Source: Chryseobacterium sp.
Lineage (GTDB): Bacteria; Bacteroidota; Bacteroidia; Flavobacteriales; Weeksellaceae
DNA: 63,625 bases
Assembly: GCA_031277615.1 (NCBI GenBank)
Contig: JAITMC010000014.1
Span: 1 to 63,625 of the forward strand
Reading direction: 5' to 3'
Shown: positions 21,101-36,487 of the stretch, piece by piece
How positions within the stretch are numbered: the first letter of the stretch is position 1
Layout: each line of letters starts with the position of its first letter
Program-made: the position numbers and the translations under genes
The notes under the pieces: generated by a model
Told to the model about the DNA's origin: nothing
Seen by the model: the letters and a program-made list of their open reading frames with translations, nothing else
The model's database searches: none

Positions 21101-22159
21101 TTATCGATACAACTGCTCTCTGATCTCAATTAAAATATCTGTTGTCTTTTCCAGATCCGGAAGGTCCGGAAGATCAGAGGTGGAATAATGATGTTCAATA
21201 GAAGAAATCAGGTTTTCTGCTTTCTGCATAACGCTCTCATAGGATTGGTTTCCGGCTTTGATATCCAGCAGTTCATCACGGTTGGTAACCCGGATTTCAA
21301 GTGTGCCGGTTTTAAATATTTGTTCACAGGACTGTAAAAGCCGGATGGTATGCATCATGTTTTTACTGTCATAATTCTTTCCGTGGATTTGGTTCACGTT
21401 ATAGCGGTCTTCATTGCGTTCAGCTACCCATTTCCAGTATTCCCTGTAGTCTTTACAGTAAACGGAGTAGGAATCTAAGTTGCAGTACAGATATGTGGCA
21501 GGAGTTTCATTTTTAGGAACGGATGATACCGAAACCTGATTGGCTTCTTCGTTTTGAATAATTCCTTTATATCCAAGGGTTTTCGTTTCATCATAAAATA
21601 AGCTATACATTCCTTTGGTATGGTCAATGTTTACCAGACCACAGTTTTCCTGCATTTTTTGATTCTCTGTAAGCCATTTTTTCAAGGGAACAGAACCCTG
21701 CCCTTTAAGGATAAAGCAGAAATCAAGGATCGATTTTCTCTCTTTTTCTATGGGATTTAAGATTTTTTTATTGAGTCCTTTTGCTTTTTTGATCTGCGAA
21801 ACGGCGTATCCGGCAAATGTATCTTTGCATAGCTTTGACAGGAAATCTTCAGGCTTCAGCAGATTCATCAGCGGGTTTTTATAGAGAACAGAATCTTCAG
21901 GACATGCCAGAATTTCCAGAATATTGGGATTGTTTTTCTGAAGCAGCTCTACAAATCTCCCGATTTCATAATAGGTAATGTCATTTGTTTCATTGGAAAT
22001 CTGCGGAATATAATTCAATCCGAAAAAATCGTTCTTCGGTACATAATATACGCCCCGGATGTCTGTATCCGAAGTTTCTGTAGCGAGGCCAAAGGCACGG
22101 CTCCCGGAGATGGTTTCAAGGAGAATGAGGTTTTTATTTTTAAGGTCCTGGATGGTCAT
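21101..22159 (-). CDS. PF10127-type (RlaP-like) nucleotidyltransferase
   Basis: This 352-residue protein has an N-terminal polymerase-beta-type nucleotidyltransferase core. It reads ISGSRAFGLATETSDTDIRGVYYVP, with G19-S20 holding the triphosphate and D31/D33 as metal ligands. The long C-terminal part is helical and fits the family of predicted nucleotidyltransferases found near RNA ligases. Such enzymes are predicted to add nucleotides or nucleotidyl groups to RNA ends or proteins; this has not been shown for this branch. It is the last gene of the operon that begins with the tRNA-like RNA and the TROVE gene. Its start overlaps the upstream ATPase stop by 4 bp (ATGA), so it is translationally coupled. 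Confidence 0.8.
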   Translation of the reverse strand: MTIQDLKNKNLILLETISGSRAFGLATETSDTDIRGVYYVPKNDFFGLNYIPQISNETNDITYYEIGRFVELLQKNNPNILEILACPEDSVLYKNPLMNLLKPEDFLSKLCKDTFAGYAVSQIKKAKGLNKKILNPIEKERKSILDFCFILKGQGSVPLKKWLTENQKMQENCGLVNIDHTKGMYSLFYDETKTLGYKGIIQNEEANQVSVSSVPKNETPATYLYCNLDSYSVYCKDYREYWKWVAERNEDRYNVNQIHGKNYDSKNMMHTIRLLQSCEQIFKTGTLEIRVTNRDELLDIKAGNQSYESVMQKAENLISSIEHHYSTSDLPDLPDLEKTTDILIEIREQLYR

Positions 22160-28394: not shown

Positions 28395-28524
28395 GGAAGG
28401 CCGGCCGGACTCGAACCGGCGACACACGGCTTACGAAGCGAAGTAACTTTATCATCACACCCATCAGGGTTAAAATTTAATAAAGCATATTACGTTGCTC
28501 TAACCAACTGAGCTACGGCCTCCC
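28395..28524 (-). ncRNA. tRNA-like RNA, candidate Y RNA, upstream of the TROVE gene
   Basis: On the minus strand the ends fold like a tRNA. A 7-bp acceptor stem pairs GAGGCCG (28522-28516) with CGGCCTT (28403-28397), extendable by two G-C pairs. TA follows, then a D arm GCTC-AGTTGGTTA-GAGC (28513-28497) and a T arm GCCGG-TTCGAGT-CCGGC (28420-28404). The anticodon arm is missing. In its place are 76 nt containing a bulged stem, GTAA..CTTTAT pairing with ATAAAG..TTAC, which encloses CCC-TGAT-GGG. No CCA is encoded. A tRNA shell with the anticodon arm replaced is what is known for bacterial YrlA-type Y RNAs, and the gene lies directly upstream of the TROVE gene. A degenerate or intron-containing tRNA is the alternative. 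Confidence 0.85.
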
Positions 28525-28535
28525 TTATTGATGAT

Positions 28536-28572
28536 GCAAAGTAAATACGGTAATGCGCAGTGTTTTTGCGTA
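28536..28572 (-). promoter_or_regulatory. repair-regulon promoter A (tRNA-like RNA/TROVE operon)
   Basis: On the minus strand: TACGCA (28572-28567), 7 bp, TGCGCA (28559-28554), 9 bp, TTACTTTGC (28544-28536). The tRNA-like RNA begins about 12 bp further on. The same order and exact spacing occur at 31651-31687 and 36164-36200. Confidence 0.85.
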
Positions 28573-28675
28573 GAATAAAATGTCTGAAATTTTTTTAAAA
28601 AAAATATCGATTTGGGTCAAAAGGTAGCCAACGCGGGGAAAGTAATTTTATGAATGTTAGCCGTTTAAAGAGCCG

Positions 28676-29332
28676 TCAACAGGGGAACCACCAATGCATA
28701 AAACAGATCCTGTTATTTTTGAAAAACAGGTTGAGATGGCCGTCTGAAATGCCTTCGCTGTCTTCTCTGAGCTGTATCACCTGGAATTTACCTTCTCCGT
28801 ATACGTCCAGCGTACCGATATTTCTTATAGCATTCGGAAAGATGGGTTTCAGATCGTTAATTGTGGTTTTGGCATCGATTTTAATGCCTTTATACAGGAT
28901 ATAGTTACCGTTGATAAACCTGAATTCATCCACTGCAACTTTGTCTTTGGTGTTTTCAAAACGGGAACCGTTTTTATAGAGATACTGATCATTCATATCC
29001 TTGCTTCCGTCAGGGTTTTCAAAAATATAAGTGCAGGGAGCTTCTTCAGACATCAGTTTGATGCTGTCTGCCTTTCCGAATATTTTTTCAAAATCAGTGA
29101 GGGAAAAGTATCTTTTCAGCTTACCGTTAAAGAGAATGTCATCCTCCGGCATAACTTCATTCAGGCTGTCTTTTTTAACCTCTGTTATTTGAGCAACGGG
29201 AGAGTCTGCTGAGTCGTTTTTAACCATTGTCTTTTGACCAGGATCGGCAGATGGACGCTCTTTTTTATTTTCCTCTTTTCCGGCACAGGACAGAAGCAGA
29301 ACAAAGATCCATAGAAGGGAAAGGTTTTTCAT
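28676..29332 (-). CDS. hypothetical lipoprotein
   Basis: A signal peptide with lipobox (FVLLLSC) starts at the internal methionine MKNLSLLWI (29332). The ORF could start five codons earlier, at 29347. The mature part begins with a lysine/glutamate-rich linker (GKEENKKERPSADPG) and then a soluble domain with DFEKIFGKADSIKLM, FENPDGSKDMNDQYLY and a cysteine-containing end (ICFMHWWFPC). I do not recognise the domain. It lies between two repair operons on the same strand but has no repair-type promoter, so its presence there may be incidental. Confidence 0.7.
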   Translation of the reverse strand: MKNLSLLWIFVLLLSCAGKEENKKERPSADPGQKTMVKNDSADSPVAQITEVKKDSLNEVMPEDDILFNGKLKRYFSLTDFEKIFGKADSIKLMSEEAPCTYIFENPDGSKDMNDQYLYKNGSRFENTKDKVAVDEFRFINGNYILYKGIKIDAKTTINDLKPIFPNAIRNIGTLDVYGEGKFQVIQLREDSEGISDGHLNLFFKNNRICFMHWWFPC

Positions 29333-29378
29333 CTTGATATTTTCCACTAAAATACAAAAGGGTGGGATAAAAAGAAAC

Positions 29379-29463
29379 CATTAAGAAAATGAAATCCGTT
29401 AAAATTATAATTACTGTTGTCACAGCATATTCATTCACTAAATCTCATTTCTTAATGGTTTTT
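29379..29463. repeat. inverted repeat at the end of the ATP-grasp operon
   Basis: AACCATTAAGAAAATGAAAT near 29379 is the near-complement of ATCTCATTTCTTAATGGTTT near 29443. The arms, about 20 bp with two mismatches, enclose about 45 bp. It lies just after the ATP-grasp stop (29464) and could form a terminating or stabilising hairpin. Confidence 0.55.
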
Positions 29464-30195
29464 CTAATGTTTAATACAGCTTTCAACGATTACGTCCAGG
29501 GCTTTTTCTGCATCACAAGCATATAAACCGGAACACCAGGCCGGATTGGCTTCAATAAGGGCCCAGCCTTTTCCTTTGATGATGCCAAAATCCAGGACAA
29601 CCGCTTTGGGAAGAGTGGAGGCGTACTGTCTGATGAACTTTTCAAAAAGTAGAAACATTTCCTGCTGTTCTGTTTCAGAAAGAGGATTGGTATCAAAACT
29701 GTTATTCCTCCAATAGGATGAATGGGTTTTTATTTCACCGTTCAATACAAAACATCGTACTTCAAGTGTCCATTCCACTACCTCCGAAACAAAGACGGTA
29801 CTTTCCGGGTCCACAGAGTCAAAACCTTTGATATCGGTTACTTTATCATAAACACCTGCTTTAAAGCTTTTAAAATCTGCACATTTAATAAAAATATTTT
29901 CCAGATCGGTAAAGTCTTTCAGCTTGCCGTAGGAAATTTTCCTTTTGGTAAATTCTTTTGAAATATGAGCCATCCAGTCGTCGTCCGGTTTGGTAAGCGT
30001 CAGCCCGCATTGTTCTGCAACGATTTCTGCATAGATATCTTCCCCATATACGGCAATGACATCGGCCCGGAATTCCTCCGGAACTTTCCATTGGTCATTA
30101 AACCGGTTCAGCTCATAAGGAGAGTTGAGGGATGCTTTTTTCAGATTGTTGCTGTCTTCCGTGTACATGGGAGAAAGCGCGATGATATTTTTCAT
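29464..30195 (-). CDS. ATP-grasp domain protein (R2K-clade-like)
   Basis: This 243-residue protein lacks a signal peptide. The second half fits a divergent ATP-grasp fold. VEWTLEVRCFVLNGEI holds the conserved Glu and Arg, VVLDFGIIKGKGWALIEANP the metal-binding Asp, Glu and Asn, followed by AWCSGLYACD. This pattern is that of the R2K clade (DUF4343-like). ATP-grasp enzymes join a carboxylate to an amine or thiol through an acyl-phosphate, and R2K members are predicted protein- or peptide-modifying enzymes. It is the third gene of the unit starting at 31635. A link to RNA repair is by association only. Confidence 0.75.
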   Translation of the reverse strand: MKNIIALSPMYTEDSNNLKKASLNSPYELNRFNDQWKVPEEFRADVIAVYGEDIYAEIVAEQCGLTLTKPDDDWMAHISKEFTKRKISYGKLKDFTDLENIFIKCADFKSFKAGVYDKVTDIKGFDSVDPESTVFVSEVVEWTLEVRCFVLNGEIKTHSSYWRNNSFDTNPLSETEQQEMFLLFEKFIRQYASTLPKAVVLDFGIIKGKGWALIEANPAWCSGLYACDAEKALDVIVESCIKH

Positions 30196-30215
30196 GGTAT
30201 TAAGTTTTCTGATTT

Positions 30216-30881
30216 TTAGTTTTTAATCTGTTCATAAGGGTTATTTTCTAAAATTCTTTCACTGACCATTCCATAATAATTCAGGATTTCATAGGTGATG
30301 GTAATGCCATTAATATCCAGATCTTCAGACATCCCGTGATAACCTCCTGCTCTGTATCCTTTTTTGTCGCTGGTCATGATCATATATTCGGCACCGCCGC
30401 AATCAGCATAAGTTTCGATGCCTATCATAAGGCAGTCCTGGTTTCTTTCCAGTTCTTCATAGCACTGATCGATGAAAGAAATATCCATATGCTCTGCTGC
30501 AAACCTGTTCTCTTTTAGGATGAATTCATAATGAGCTTCATCCAGAATTTCCTGCAGATGGTTATAATCAGCATGCTCACCATGAATTTCCGTATATCTT
30601 TTTACAGCATACAAAATAAATTCTTTGGTGTAAAATACTCTTTCATAAATCTCATTGTCCCACAAGCATCTGTACCTGAAATTGTTTTCTGATATCTTAT
30701 GCCGGGTAAAGAAATTAATATAAACATCAGGAACAATCAGCCCATATTCCTCTCTGAGATATGCACATCTTTCCATAAAAGGATGCGGTGGTATACGGTT
30801 ATCTTTTCCCGTCTGAATTCCAGATCCGGGATTTTTATTTTTCATTGATTTTTCTTTTTTAAACCGCCGAAACAGCTTCAT
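30216..30881 (-). CDS. hypothetical protein in the nucleotidyltransferase/ATP-grasp operon
   Basis: This 221-residue soluble protein starts 1 bp after the upstream nucleotidyltransferase stop and ends 20 bp before the ATP-grasp start. An alternative start at MKNKNPGSG (twelve codons in) has a better purine-rich site (AAAGAAAAATCA). Residues 33-60 are strongly patterned (PPHPFMERCAYLREEYGLIVPDVY). The middle is helical, and the C-terminal third has YADCGGAEYMIM, then GYHGMSEDLDINGITI. I do not recognise the family. The tight spacing argues for a shared function with its two neighbours. Confidence 0.7.
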   Translation of the reverse strand: MKLFRRFKKEKSMKNKNPGSGIQTGKDNRIPPHPFMERCAYLREEYGLIVPDVYINFFTRHKISENNFRYRCLWDNEIYERVFYTKEFILYAVKRYTEIHGEHADYNHLQEILDEAHYEFILKENRFAAEHMDISFIDQCYEELERNQDCLMIGIETYADCGGAEYMIMTSDKKGYRAGGYHGMSEDLDINGITITYEILNYYGMVSERILENNPYEQIKN

Positions 30882-30882
30882 T

Positions 30883-31647
<765 letters not shown>

Positions 31648-31650
31648 TCA

Positions 31651-31687
31651 GCAAAGTAAGGAGGTGAGTGCGTAATCTTTTTGCGTA
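31651..31687 (-). promoter_or_regulatory. repair-regulon promoter B (nucleotidyltransferase/ATP-grasp operon)
   Basis: On the minus strand: TACGCA (31687-31682), 7 bp, TACGCA (31674-31669), 9 bp, TTACTTTGC (31659-31651), then ATG at 31635. Same architecture as promoters A and C. Confidence 0.85.
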
Positions 31688-31719
31688 GAGAGGAAGGAGG
31701 GTGAAAAGGAGATGAATAA

Positions 31720-32811
<1,092 letters not shown>

Positions 32812-33594
32812 ATGAAAGCAGTAAAAAACGAACTGATCTATTTCGCAACAGCCGTAATGTTCTTTACAAGAATTCCGGTTCCGTTTTCCATTCCGTATTC
32901 CGGTGAAATTATGAACCGGTCGCAGAAATATTTTGCGTGGGTTGGTCTTTTGGTCGGTCTTATCAATGCGGGGGTCCTGTATCTTTCCTATCATATTTTT
33001 AACCTTGATATCGCCATTGTTCTGATGATGATCTCCAGCGTTCTGCTGACCGGAGCTTTTCATGAAGACGGCTTTACCGACGTATGTGACAGTTTCGGAG
33101 GCGGTTACGGAAAAGAAAAGATTCTTACGATCATGAAAGACAGCAGGGTGGGAGCCTATGGTGCTGTAGGAATTATTTTGTTGTTTGCTCTTAAGTTTTT
33201 CAGCATTAAAGCCCTGGGAAATATGGATCTGATTCCCACATTCAGCATTATTGTTCTGGCTCATACAGCAAGCCGTTTCATTGCCGGAACGATGATCTAT
33301 ACCCATAAGTATGTAACTGATATTGATGTCAGTAAATCGAAGCCTTTGGCCAATAAACCACTGAATGCTTCCTCTTTAGTTTTCAGTTTTCTGAGTGTGC
33401 TGGCTGCTTTTGCCCTGATCCCTGATCCGCGTCTTATAGCAGCTTTTGTGTTGGCATATATCGGAAAGATCTGCATGGGATGGTACTTTAAAAAGCATAT
33501 CGGAGGTTATACCGGTGATTGTCTCGGATCTGTACAGCAGGTGAGTGAAGTTTTGTTTTACCTGGGAACAATGATCGTATGGAAATTCATCTGA
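32812..33594 (+). CDS. cobS: adenosylcobinamide-GDP ribazoletransferase (cobalamin synthase)
   Basis: This 260-residue inner-membrane enzyme joins alpha-ribazole (phosphate) to adenosylcobinamide-GDP, a last step of cobalamin assembly. It has the CobS signature FHEDGFTDVCDSFGGGYGKEKILTIMKDSRVGAYG at about 83-117 (Asp-rich GDP/metal site). Membrane helices surround it (for example VGLLVGLINAGVLYLS). The terminal YTGDCLGSVQQVSEV is also typical. It is directly adjacent to cobT and overlaps cobC by 16 bp. Confidence 0.93.
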   Translation: MKAVKNELIYFATAVMFFTRIPVPFSIPYSGEIMNRSQKYFAWVGLLVGLINAGVLYLSYHIFNLDIAIVLMMISSVLLTGAFHEDGFTDVCDSFGGGYGKEKILTIMKDSRVGAYGAVGIILLFALKFFSIKALGNMDLIPTFSIIVLAHTASRFIAGTMIYTHKYVTDIDVSKSKPLANKPLNASSLVFSFLSVLAAFALIPDPRLIAAFVLAYIGKICMGWYFKKHIGGYTGDCLGSVQQVSEVLFYLGTMIVWKFI

Positions 33595-34133
33595 TCCGGC
33601 ATACCGAAGTGGAAAATCCGGACGGCCTGTGCTATGGATTTGCAGAAGTACCTTTAAGAAAAGGGTATCTCAAAGATTTTGAGGCTTTGACATGGGAAGA
33701 TTGTTTTGACTGTATTATTTCAAGCCCATCCAGACGTTGCACCCTTTTGGCAGAGTATTTTCAACAGCATTATACGACAGATGAAAGGCTGCGTGAAATG
33801 AATTTCGGAAGTTGGGAAATGAAACCGTGGACGGAAATCCCGGCAACGGAGATCAATCCCTGGTATGAGGATTTTATCAACGTAAAAGCTACAGGTGGTG
33901 AAAATCTTCTGGCCATGCAGTCGCGGGTATTAGACTTCTGGAATGAGCTTATCACAGCTGAAGAAAAACATAAAGTTCTTCTGATAACCCATGCCGGAGT
34001 AATACGCCTTATTCTCCAAACCGTTCTTCAGTTTCCTGTGGAAAATATATTTAACATCCAGATCGGTTATGGAAAAAGAACCGTTATAGAACTGAAAGAC
34101 GGATATCTTTCCGTAAAAAGCCTGAATCTGTAA
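33579..34133 (+). CDS. cobC: alpha-ribazole phosphatase-like histidine phosphatase
   Basis: This 184-residue member of the histidine phosphatase family has the catalytic LIRHTEVEN near the N-terminus (RHT in place of RHG), EMNFGSWE in the middle and the second histidine in LLITHAGVIR. In this operon it would dephosphorylate alpha-ribazole phosphate or cobalamin-5'-phosphate. The start lies within the cobS 3' end. No cobU (adenosylcobinamide kinase) is in the window, so the pathway must be completed elsewhere. A terminator follows. Confidence 0.88.
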   Translation: MEIHLIRHTEVENPDGLCYGFAEVPLRKGYLKDFEALTWEDCFDCIISSPSRRCTLLAEYFQQHYTTDERLREMNFGSWEMKPWTEIPATEINPWYEDFINVKATGGENLLAMQSRVLDFWNELITAEEKHKVLLITHAGVIRLILQTVLQFPVENIFNIQIGYGKRTVIELKDGYLSVKSLNL

Positions 34134-34148
34134 GATCTTAACCCATAA

Positions 34149-34182
34149 AAAAGAGGCTATCCATTTATGAAAGCCTCTTTTC
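34149..34182 (+). terminator. intrinsic terminator after cobC
   Basis: AAAGAGGCT pairs with AGCCTCTTT, flanked by A and T runs, so it may work in both directions. Confidence 0.8.
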
Positions 34183-34212
34183 AACAATTTTAAATTCTAA
34201 CTACTTGTGCGT

Positions 34213-34350
34213 TTAAGCCGTAATCTGCTTAGGTTTTTTTGTTTTATCTTCTTCCTTTTTATCCAATTTCTCAGATATTTTCTTTACGATATATTCTATA
34301 GCAATAGGAGCTATAATAGCAATAAGGGCTTTAAATATTCTTGATTTCAT
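34213..34350 (-). CDS. 45-residue small membrane-associated protein
   Basis: A minus-strand ORF starting at 34350 encodes a hydrophobic helix (ALIAIIAPIAIEYIVKK) followed by a strongly charged tail (EKLDKKEEDKTKKPKQ). This layout is that of small single-pass membrane proteins and fits coding sequence better than chance. It ends at 34213, next to the cobC terminator. I cannot name a family or function. Confidence 0.5.
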   Translation of the reverse strand: MKSRIFKALIAIIAPIAIEYIVKKISEKLDKKEEDKTKKPKQITA

Positions 34351-34489
34351 AGTGTTATTTTATAGATAGGTAAATACAATTTCCAAGCCATTTTAAAAAA
34401 TATGATGGGTTGGAATCAGGAAAAGTTGAATCTGGGATTAATTAATTTGCAATATATTACTTTGATTATCTGATATTTGTGAGTGTTTT

Positions 34490-34645
34490 TTTTCTCGCTG
34501 ATCACGCAGATCACGCAGATTTTAAATTTTACCCGGAAAATCTTTGAATTTTAATATTGAACTTCTATGCGTGAAGAATTAAACTTAAAAAACTCTAGTG
34601 TCAAATTCTTTTGTCTTCATCGAACCTTCGGTTTGTGGTCAAAAA
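34490..34645 (-). repeat. diverged inverted copy of the 19181-20590 repeat
   Basis: In reverse orientation this holds the elements of one unit: CTGTG-like end, GAACTTCTATGCGTGAA, AACTTAAAAAACTCTAGTG and TCAAATTCTTTTGTC, then TTGTGGTC. A small insertion (CATCGAACCTTCGG) interrupts the AACCACAA-end. It lies 3' of the WYL regulator gene. Confidence 0.75.
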
Positions 34646-34720
34646 ATTTATATTTCCTTTATAAAGTTGAACCGTTTAGAAAAATCTGTTCATTAGAGAT
34701 GGTTGCTTCAATTTCAGAAT

Positions 34721-35743
34721 TTACCCGTTTTCATCCGGAATCTCCAGGTTTTTATAATTTGTAAATCCCATTTTGAATTTCTCCTGCATTCTGAGTCTCA
34801 GCCTGCGTGGCTGATGAACAATCAGCGAGTCTCCAAAGCCCAGCAGCAGCCTTTCCAGTTCATAATTGATCTGAACACAGATTTTAAAAAGCGTTCCCTC
34901 CTCTGTTTCGCTGATGATCTCCTGACTTTTATGCAGAGGTTTTGTCTTTATATAAGGCGAATTGGAGGCGTCCACAAAAAAAATAATATTTCTGGGAGCC
35001 ATCGCATCTGAAACCGTTACCCCGACAATATCCTTGAAATACTCATCACCATCCAGATCTTTATCAATATAGGGAAGGTTTTCCTCATGACCTATTTTTT
35101 CCATTCTGTCCAGGGCAAGGTTATACATTTTGCCTTTGTGAAAACAAATCAGAAACCAGCGGTTGTTGAATTCCTTCAAAAGCTGCGGATGTACGATATA
35201 GCTGCTGGATTCCCTTGCTGTAAAACTGCGGTAAAGAATATTCAGTACTTTTTTGCCCGCAATACTTTCATAAAGAATATCGATGTGTTCCAGCCCTTTC
35301 AGCTGCTCATTTTTATCGAGATGGATAATCGATTTCTGGCTGGTGGAATGAATAGAGTCTTCCAGCTTCTGGATCACTCCGTTCATTTCCTTGAACATCG
35401 AAAAGTCTTTAAACTGCTTTAAGATCTGTATGGCATTGTTCATGGCTTTCAGGTCGCTTTCGTTCACGGAGATATTATGAATGCTGTATTCCGGATCGCT
35501 GTAGCGGTAATATTTCCGCTCATACACTTCAATGGGAGCTTCATATCCGAATTTTTCACTGCGCATATTCTGAAGATCAAGCTGAACGGTACGTCTGCTT
35601 ACATAAGATTCCTTACCCTCGAATTCAAAGAGGGCTTCAGAGCATTCATCAATAAGATCTTCTAACGTATATTTACGGTATTTGTTTTTTAAACATTTAT
35701 CCAGTGTTTTATAGCGGATCAGGGCGTTTTTATTGGATGACAT
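34721..35743 (-). CDS. WYL-domain transcriptional regulator
   Basis: This 340-residue protein has an N-terminal helix-turn-helix at about 8-60 (YTLEDLIDECSEAL, then YVSRRTVQLDLQNMRS). The WYL domain is at about 155-230 (HPQLLKEFNNRWFLICF, the W-F-L form of the signature) and a WCX extension at about 245-330. WYL proteins sense nucleic acid or nucleotide ligands and control DNA-damage, defence and RNA-repair genes. It lies 45 bp downstream of the HopJ-family gene on the same strand, in a unit divergent from the tRNA-like RNA and rtcB. It is the best candidate in the window for the protein binding the TRCGCA repeats, but this is inference. Confidence 0.88.
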   Translation of the reverse strand: MSSNKNALIRYKTLDKCLKNKYRKYTLEDLIDECSEALFEFEGKESYVSRRTVQLDLQNMRSEKFGYEAPIEVYERKYYRYSDPEYSIHNISVNESDLKAMNNAIQILKQFKDFSMFKEMNGVIQKLEDSIHSTSQKSIIHLDKNEQLKGLEHIDILYESIAGKKVLNILYRSFTARESSSYIVHPQLLKEFNNRWFLICFHKGKMYNLALDRMEKIGHEENLPYIDKDLDGDEYFKDIVGVTVSDAMAPRNIIFFVDASNSPYIKTKPLHKSQEIISETEEGTLFKICVQINYELERLLLGFGDSLIVHQPRRLRLRMQEKFKMGFTNYKNLEIPDENG

Positions 35744-35788
35744 GGTTTTTATGTTTTTTTTGAATGACAGTTAAAACTTATCCTGAAA

Positions 35789-36121
35789 TTACTTCTTCTT
35801 CAGAGCTTCTCCTTCAAAAATAATCCCTTCCCATCCGTATTTCATAAAATTTCTGATATTCTGATGATCAGTTCCTTCCGGATTTTTTAAGACATCTTCC
35901 CGGTAGAATTCTCCGAAAAGAGGCAGGGTGTGCTCTCCGGATAATCCCTGAAGTCTGGCAAAACTGAAAACCTTGCATGATCCATTGTTCTGTCCGGCCT
36001 CATTCATGGTATTTCCATTTTTAAATGCAGTGGGAGTAAATTCGTAATGCTCGTCGATATACGCGATCACTTCTTTGAACTGAATAGATTCAGGATTGTT
36101 TTTTACAGTTTCTGATAACAT
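35789..36121 (-). CDS. HopJ-family protein
   Basis: This 110-residue soluble protein matches the HopJ type III effector family: YEFTPTAFKNGNTMNEAGQN, NGSCKVFSFARLQGLS, then PEGTDHQNIRNFMKYGWEGI. Despite the name the family is widespread in free-living bacteria without type III secretion; none is visible here, and its function is unknown. It is divergent from the rtcB unit and shares the TRCGCA repeats in between. Its own -7 box (36139-36146) is 18 bp from the ATG. It probably heads the operon with the WYL regulator. Confidence 0.9.
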   Translation of the reverse strand: MLSETVKNNPESIQFKEVIAYIDEHYEFTPTAFKNGNTMNEAGQNNGSCKVFSFARLQGLSGEHTLPLFGEFYREDVLKNPEGTDHQNIRNFMKYGWEGIIFEGEALKKK

Positions 36122-36138
36122 ATATATTTATTTTGTGT

Positions 36139-36146
36139 CAAAAATA
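36139..36146 (-). promoter_or_regulatory. -7 box for the HopJ/WYL unit
   Basis: TATTTTTG on the minus strand fits TAnnTTTG. The TRCGCA pair of promoter C lies 17 bp upstream. Both hexamers there are the self-complementary TGCGCA, so one operator could serve both directions. Confidence 0.55.
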
Positions 36147-36163
36147 ATTAAATTTTTTTTATC

Positions 36164-36200
36164 TGCGCAGAATTATTGCGCACTTGTGTTGTTACTTTGC
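36164..36200 (+). promoter_or_regulatory. repair-regulon promoter C (tRNA-like RNA/rtcB unit)
   Basis: TGCGCA (36164-36169), 7 bp, TGCGCA (36177-36182), 9 bp, TTACTTTGC (36192-36200). The tRNA-like fold begins 12 bp downstream. Same order and spacing as promoters A and B. Confidence 0.85.
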
Positions 36201-36211
36201 AATATCAAAAT

Positions 36212-36402
36212 GACCTTGTAGCTTAAAAGGAAAAGCCTACGGAAAAATTTACGTATTCGTAGAGTTTGAGGATATTCCGGTTAGACCTGCGCGGACTAAT
36301 GGGTAGAGTTTACAGATGCACCGAAATTCTCGGGAAAGTAGGGAAGCGTATTTACAGCCTCAATGCCAATAGGGAATGTGAGTTCGAATCTCACCAGGGT
36401 TA
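36212..36402 (+). ncRNA. large tRNA-like RNA, candidate Y RNA, upstream of rtcB
   Basis: The ends form a tRNA-like shell. A 7-bp acceptor stem pairs GACCTTG (36212-36218) with CAGGGTT (36395-36401, two G-U pairs). TA follows, then a D arm GCTT-AAAAGGAA-AAGC (36221-36236) and a T arm GTGAG-TTCGAAT-CTCAC (36378-36394). Between D and T arms are 141 nt instead of about 22. They contain CTACG/CGTAG, a long-range stem TTGAGG/CCTCAA (36266-36271 with 36358-36363), a second D-like hairpin GACT-AATGGGTAG-AGTT and CCGA-AATTC-TCGG. No CCA is encoded and no anticodon arm can be drawn. It parallels the RNA upstream of the TROVE gene. No terminator separates it from rtcB, so the two may be cotranscribed and processed. 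Confidence 0.82.
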
Positions 36403-36487
36403 CATAGAAATTAATAAAAATGAATTGCAGCAGCTTAGTCTGAATGGGATAATGAAAATCAGAAAATGACGGCAGATAAGGCTCTGA

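Follow-up and report, generated by a model that had tools for sequence, protein, structure and literature searches.

Do three separate units of RNA-repair genes in one Chryseobacterium genome share a promoter element, and which regulator would bind it? The question arises from a 63,625-nt stretch of Chryseobacterium sp. (GCA_031277615.1, contig JAITMC010000014.1), hereafter the window. In it, a first-pass annotation had placed one exactly spaced layout of two hexamers and a downstream box before a TROVE operon, an operon of a nucleotidyltransferase and an ATP-grasp protein, and an rtcB unit, and had read the three as one RNA-repair regulon. As judged by comparing the window with related genomes, the element is real and specific, and it is shared widely at the promoters of RNA-repair genes. 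The three promoters almost certainly constitute one RNA-repair regulon, and the protein with a WYL domain encoded beside rtcB is very probably its regulator.

Anatomy of the element

The element consists of two hexamers separated by 7 bp and followed, after a further 9 bp, by TTACTTTGC. All three sites were recovered at the predicted positions and strands with identical spacing and 0 mismatches each (Table 1), and no match arose in any of 100 shuffles of the window that preserved dinucleotides. Searching the whole genome (4,822,611 bases in 46 contigs, 98.4% complete) with up to 3 mismatches allowed returned four pattern matches, all with 0 mismatches, and one match for the reversed-pattern control. 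The expectation from base composition is ~5e-6 full patterns and 0.9 dyads per genome, calculated with a GC content of 0.36 (that of the window is 0.39). The fourth copy (G000:C39:2120-2156, minus strand) lies 704 nt upstream of a 365-aa open reading frame of a slipin cluster, one member of which matches Pfam Band_7 (1.1e-26). The dyad core TRCGCA-N7-TGCGYA alone has 3 occurrences genome-wide, each at one of the four sites; the site outside this set is site 2, whose second hexamer is TACGCA.

The hexamers had been described as direct repeats with a 13-bp period, which was not borne out. Across relatives, an inverted repeat of 6+7+6 bp fits better, because variation in the second hexamer mostly follows TGC(G/A)(C/T)A. 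Among 117 distinct sites, TACGCA or TGCGCA predominates as the first hexamer and TGCGCA or TGCGTA as the second, and the two halves agree better when read as inverted (Jensen-Shannon 0.18) than as direct (0.49); the direct-repeat reading was dropped. The G and C located 6 bp from the dyad axis are invariant in 153 sites, while the N7 spacer is asymmetric, with AAAA(C/G)A. Outside the family Weeksellaceae, the symmetry runs further out, to ACTRCGCA...TGCGYAGT, in most of 33 sites.

The distance from dyad to box is 9 in 127/127 dyads followed by TTACTTTG, a biased statistic, since this very spacing served to select most of the regions. TTACTTTGC differs by one mismatch from the -7 consensus TAnnTTTG and is also compatible with the TAnnTTGY box described in F. 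psychrophilum. With the -7 box placed at -12 to -5, as in the literature, a dyad exactly 9 bp upstream would span about -40 to -22 with its center near -31, thereby occupying the position of the -33 element. No TTG was found at the usual -33 distance upstream of the box. The earlier placement of the hexamers at the -33 position, exactly spaced from the -7 box, therefore holds as anatomy. The predicted transcription start is an A in 142 of 153 sites. Conservation continues past the sites over bases +1 to +5 (TTTGCATCATCAA-like; e.g., 36200-36210), further than a box needs.

Genes downstream of the element

Scanning of relatives, as the first-pass annotation had suggested, recovered the pattern throughout the genus. 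With a relaxed -7 box, the pattern is present in 45/59 genus genomes (control 0), and with up to 2 mismatches in 59/59 (reversed control 0). For the 20 genus genomes examined in which rtcB has no exact site, a lack of the element was ruled out, as all of them carry a variant with 1-2 mismatches upstream of rtcB; the second hexamer is TGCGTA, TGCACA, or TGCATA in 19 of these, and the first is AACGCA in one. The first genus scan yielded 72 places, of which 69 were analyzed; two of the other three (L318 and L319), both upstream of TROVE, were added later.

Within Weeksellaceae, the exact pattern occurs in 68/197 genomes and 10/33 genera (control 0). Confinement of the motif to the genus is ruled out by these sites and by others beyond the family. 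Across the order, with up to 1 mismatch, 36/296 genomes carry the motif, all of them within the 49 of the same family. From the family scan, 37 places outside the genus and six genus genomes were taken as loci, with L096-L118 left out of the gene analysis.

At 137 motif-selected Weeksellaceae sites, the first match on the same strand within 1.7 kb is mainly rtcB (50), TROVE (33, or 34 with L038, whose next gene encodes a 436-aa TROVE protein), RlaP (24), or slipin (13), which agrees with the single regulon originally proposed. An exoribonuclease family (Pfam RNase_T and Rv2179c-like) accounts for 1 site, two small unknown families for 2 each, and 12, including L038, have no match. Among the matches listed, at least 87 further Weeksellaceae sites precede TROVE (34, or 35 with L209), rtcB (25), slipin (16), RlaP (2), R2K (1), and two unknown families (1 each); 3 leave no room for a gene and 4, including L209, have no match. 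The two sets may have genomes in common. L227, labeled Flavobacteriaceae, was counted in Weeksellaceae because its TROVE protein is 86% like theirs.

A scan of contigs, in which at least 118 stretches were listed and the species are a sample, extended the element to other groups. Among the matches listed, at least 36 loci come from Mucilaginibacter, Solitalea, Desertivirga, Fulvivirga, Emticicia, Saprospiraceae, Lewinella, Prevotellaceae, Muribaculaceae, Duncaniella, Dysgonomonas, Porphyromonadaceae, further metagenome-assembled genomes, and one Pseudomonas. A repair gene lies downstream in 25 of these 36 loci: rtcB in 19 (15 by script, with L189, L263, L271, and L300 assigned from later gene lists), TROVE in 2, Hen1-Pnkp in 2, a T4-type RNA ligase in 1 (L282, 3.4e-18), and slipin followed by rtcB in 1 (L289). 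Hen1-Pnkp was identified in L238 by Pfam Hen1_L (1.2e-109) and PNKP_ligase (1.2e-177), and in L184 by eye from its likeness to L238. The remaining loci comprise an unknown family of ~750 aa (3), a 310-aa family (1), the WYL gene itself (1, L248), and six others (L193, L213, L223, L250, L259, and L280). L259 (the Pseudomonas locus) and L332 look like chance matches. In Mucilaginibacter, Fulvivirga, Saprospiraceae, and Prevotellaceae, among the matches listed, what follows the element is one of several alternatives, namely other RtcB types, Hen1-Pnkp, or T4-type ligase. Five whole genomes of these groups, searched with up to 2 mismatches, contain 9 sites (control 0), 7 before rtcB, Hen1, T4-type ligase, or slipin, one before the ~750-aa family, and one unexplained.

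A WYL protein as candidate regulator

The WYL gene had been singled out as the most likely regulator, and its distribution supports that choice. Among 32 RtcB-bearing genomes outside the genus, a site precedes rtcB in 27/27 with a close WYL orthologue, versus a full site in 0/5 without one. Of the latter, G112 has a dyad with a changed -7 box, and in the other four the 0.65-1.8 kb taken contained no match with up to 5 mismatches. Tracking of rtcB, rather than of the WYL gene, by the motif is thus unsupported. Across 147 genomes outside the genus, the exact motif and a close WYL orthologue (E < 1e-130, a limit set after seeing the list) occur together in 24, the motif alone in 4, the orthologue alone in 4, and neither in 115 (Fisher 1.6e-19), although such tests overstate independence because the genomes compared are related. 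Three of the four genomes with the orthologue alone have a variant site at rtcB; the fourth, without RtcB, has a variant upstream of another gene (site as in L275). In the genus, the WYL gene and rtcB are each found in 59/59 genomes, and RtcB, WYL, and the exact site are all absent from G228. Among the 36 listed loci outside the family, the WYL gene starts within 600 nt of the site in 14, divergently in 13 of these, and lies elsewhere within the stretch in 5 more.

In the genus, a HopJ-family gene is a common neighbor of the WYL gene in many members, on the same strand. As a partner in the system it was rejected: it adjoins the WYL gene in the genus and was not found in the 36 listed loci outside the family.

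Pfam recognizes the WYL domain (38.4 bits, cut-off 21.8, 1.2e-9) and the WCX domain (34.2 bits, cut-off 23.9, 3.4e-8) of the protein. No Pfam helix-turn-helix match was found in it; the predicted model contains the helices and strands that make up a wing, and its alignments with full-length DriD and BrxR chains start at residue 1-6. Among the PDB chains compared, the best fold match of the model is DriD, the WYL activator of the DNA-damage response in Caulobacter crescentus, with the same predicted layout of winged helix-turn-helix, WYL, and WCX. A profile match to DriD (8tp8) covers only residues 212-332 (E 1.7e-5).

The DNA sites are alike, too. DriD recognizes the consensus ATACGAC-N7-GTCGTAT, positioned over the -35 element at one distance from the -10 box and accompanied by a poor -35 box (preprint PMC12340889). 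TRCG-N11-CGYA here has the register of TACG-N11-CGTA there, and, as read from the sequence, the dyad likewise covers the -33 position at a constant distance from the -7 box, with a poor -33 box. The systems differ in their targets, RNA-repair rather than DNA-damage genes, in the half-site (TRCGCA versus TACGAC), and in the Bacteroidota promoter box.

We consider it quite likely that a DriD-like WYL dimer over the -33 position activates the RNA-repair regulon. The homodimeric factor would bind the dyad, beside which its gene often directly lies in relatives, and, as DriD does in Caulobacter, would anchor RNA polymerase at otherwise weak promoters. Given such anchoring, analogy makes an activator the likely role of the WYL protein, rather than a repressor. 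The WYL domain might sense a nucleic-acid product of RNA damage, such as a cleaved tRNA end, or single strands; this is the weakest step, and the odds between RNA and DNA as the ligand are even. Sensing would turn on a slipin, ligation and end repair, and the RNA quality control exerted by TROVE with the tRNA-like RNAs.

Several observations speak against this mechanism or its generality. With up to 1 mismatch, the motif was found in 0/247 genomes of 15 other families of the order, and its spread is therefore patchy. Genes other than rtcB, TROVE, RlaP, slipin, or exoribonuclease come next at 15/137 Weeksellaceae sites, three of which (L173, L175, and L176) are other-strand readings of dyads preceding RlaP. 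In 17/36 listed loci outside the family, no WYL gene was found in the 8-kb stretch, and Mucilaginibacter supplies 8 of the 13 divergent cases. Four genomes have the exact motif without a close WYL orthologue (G070, G099, G194, and G205); G205 is 73% complete, and G099 carries a WYL gene at 29% beside a weak site. The choice of regions by spacing and the late limit on orthologues count on the same side. The protein shares 14-17% identity with DriD, and its model is of moderate quality (mean predicted local distance difference test score, pLDDT, 79.4; predicted template-modeling score, pTM, 0.51), with residues 111-146 mostly below 50. Finally, WYL genes beside promoters can encode repressors, as BrxR and CapW illustrate.

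The repressor alternative, in which the WYL protein binds the dyad like BrxR or CapW and blocks RNA polymerase over the -33 region until a ligand releases it, appears unlikely. These WYL repressors of phage defense act as homodimers on palindromes of 19-25 bp, comparable to the predicted dyad here, and BrxR contacts G:C at +-6 from the axis, which the invariant G would allow likewise. They differ in repressing defense genes and, for BrxR, in a 5-bp gap between longer half-sites.

It is improbable that an alternative sigma factor reads these promoters, with TTACTTTGC representing the SM5 box (TAnnTTGY) known from F. psychrophilum and the dyad being only accessory. TACTTTGC fits TAnnTTGY, and C or T follows TTTG in 151/153 sites. 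However, some sites have TAACTTTG, fitting the housekeeping box (A at the base concerned in 5/153), a 19-bp dyad is not something sigma factors recognize, and the element tracks the WYL orthologue between genomes. SM5 genes, moreover, are listed as serving lipopolysaccharide, amino-acid scavenging, and gliding. Just as improbable is an unlinked regulator that binds the dyad, the WYL gene being a neighbor by accident of synteny or one more target. That HopJ separates the WYL gene from the site in the genus fits such a regulator, as do the 17 loci without a WYL gene. Against it, a divergent WYL gene recurs with a different RtcB type, Hen1-Pnkp (L238), or T4-type ligase (L282), the two Desertivirga sites each have their own divergent WYL gene (L238 and L331), and the dyad register is common to DriD. 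A chance pattern, or conserved mobile or orthologous leader DNA without a regulatory role, has next to no probability: promoters that are orthologous within a genus have a common origin, and likeness among them does not by itself count as independent support, but shuffles gave no match, the control is absent from the 59 genus and 197 family genomes, and the same element precedes non-homologous genes, within one genome and phylum-wide, with varying intervening bases.

Known RNA-repair control and accompanying genes

Known control of bacterial RNA repair involves RtcR with sigma-54 in Proteobacteria and TrcR, with a similar gene set, in cyanobacteria. RtcR is a CARF-AAA+ activator of sigma-54 that controls rtcBA and rsr-yrlBA-rtcBA in E. 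coli and Salmonella (PMC7790460). The RtcR systems share with the window a regulator gene adjoining and diverging from rtcB, a Ro60-like protein, tRNA-like RNAs (Y RNAs in the RtcR systems), and a presumed response to RNA damage (PMC7790460). In contrast, the candidate regulator of the window carries WYL and WCX only, not CARF-AAA+, and the same type of site stands before rtcB, TROVE, RlaP, and slipin, each a separate unit. In Anabaena, TrcR, a repressor of the ribbon-helix-helix type whose 8-bp motif lies close to the -10 box, covers rtcB, slipin, and a tRNA array (PMC10272220). The present gene set likewise includes rtcB, slipin, and tRNA-like RNAs, whereas the candidate regulator belongs to another protein family and the dyad, compared by reading, differs from the TrcR motif. 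PafBC, a mycobacterial WYL activator, differs as a heterodimer that meets sigma domain 4, does not bind promoter DNA alone, and uses one -26 motif instead of a dyad. The earlier statement that the motif is undescribed agrees with the literature searched, a selection of the relevant papers, in which we found no published description.

We somewhat favor the broader view that many Bacteroidota share one RNA-damage response, in which a dedicated DriD-like WYL activator, a counterpart of RtcR, senses broken RNA and acts through one promoter element on whichever repair system is present. If so, the element would drive RtcB of two types, Hen1-Pnkp, or T4-type ligase, along with RlaP, slipin, and TROVE with tRNA-like RNAs; it would also drive several uncharacterized protein families, which would count as new components of RNA repair. 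A third solution appears here, patchy over Bacteroidota, with an exact DNA element that is searchable in any genome. The finding offers a candidate regulator, a candidate DriD-like mechanism, and a promoter-based route to further RNA-repair genes, and it makes testable the question of the WYL domain as a sensor of damaged RNA.

Table 1. Sites, genes, and RNAs of the regulon; coordinates refer to the window unless a locus is named
Feature	Coordinates	Strand	Remarks
Site 1	28536..28572	-	TACGCA-N7-TGCGCA, 9 bp, -7 box TTACTTTGC; predicted promoter of tRNA-like RNA/TROVE operon; 0 mismatches
Site 2	31651..31687	-	TACGCA-N7-TACGCA, 9 bp, TTACTTTGC; predicted promoter of RlaP/221-aa/R2K genes; 0 mismatches
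Site 3	36164..36200	+	TGCGCA-N7-TGCGCA, 9 bp, TTACTTTGC; predicted promoter of tRNA-like RNA/rtcB unit; 0 mismatches
WYL-domain regulator, 340 aa	34721..35743	-	Predicted winged helix-turn-helix, three-helix part, WYL, WCX; proposed binder of the sites
HopJ-family gene	35789..36121	-	Between WYL gene and site 3; Pfam HopJ 7e-50 (PF08888)
rtcB, RNA ligase, 459 aa	36509..37888	+	Pfam RtcB 1.4e-34
TROVE-domain (Ro60-like) protein, 458 aa	26920..28296	-	Pfam TROVE 2.9e-12
Genes after TROVE: 236 aa, 94 aa, ATPase-like 412 and 747 aa, RlaP-like nucleotidyltransferase 352 aa	21101..26853	-	Open reading frames
RlaP, RNA-repair nucleotidyltransferase, 250 aa	30883..31635	-	Pfam RlaP 7e-68
221-aa protein without Pfam match	30216-30881	-	Downstream of RlaP
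R2K ATP-grasp protein	29464-30195	-	Downstream of RlaP; Pfam R2K_2 8.1e-33
tRNA-like RNA with long insert replacing the anticodon arm	28396..28522	-	Between site 1 and TROVE gene; Rfam tRNA RF00005 43 bits, cut-off 29
tRNA-like RNA, ~195 nt	36210..36405	+	Between site 3 and rtcB; read by eye, limits approximate; fold z -1.92
tRNA-like sequence of fourth unit	L004 1226-1343	-	Between site and slipin; tRNA 33.8 bits, cut-off 29

The RNA before TROVE folds with a z of -3.27, matches the tRNA model and not YrlA in Rfam, and received no call from ARAGORN; in L048, L078, and L145, too, long tRNA matches are found ahead of TROVE. The RNA before rtcB had no match in Rfam and none by ARAGORN, and it is therefore termed tRNA-like by eye. 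The sequence of the fourth unit scored 32 bits against Rfam YrlA, below the cut-off of 69. These tRNA-like RNAs may be Y-RNA-like partners of TROVE. The TROVE gene and the genes after it on the same strand probably form one operon, their co-transcription being predicted; these genes include a Pfam RlaP match (6.8e-24 at 21101-22159) and two ATPase-like proteins with weak ATPase_2 matches.

Further families recur at the element. A ~750-aa family without a Pfam match (L166, L199, L255, L273, and L330) recurs beside rtcB or under the element, the gene of L255 being followed by rtcB; L199, L255, L273, and L166 were grouped by eye, and L330 compares with L255 at 65%. A 584-aa family, also without a Pfam match, recurs downstream of rtcB (L045 and other loci). 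Both families may be new RNA-repair parts. In three genomes (L056 2631-3533, L044, and L081), a 300-aa family without a Pfam match follows sites with the spacer AAAAAGAA. L049 and L089 contain a second site within the TROVE region (TGCGTA-N7-TGCGCA with ATAACTTTG, a housekeeping-like -7 box), located before a family of 177-218 aa (c13). A large helicase-like gene lies divergently ~45 nt upstream of the rtcB site in L122, L132, L149, L151, L157, L158, and L159, and 430 nt upstream in L154, so that one element might serve two directions.

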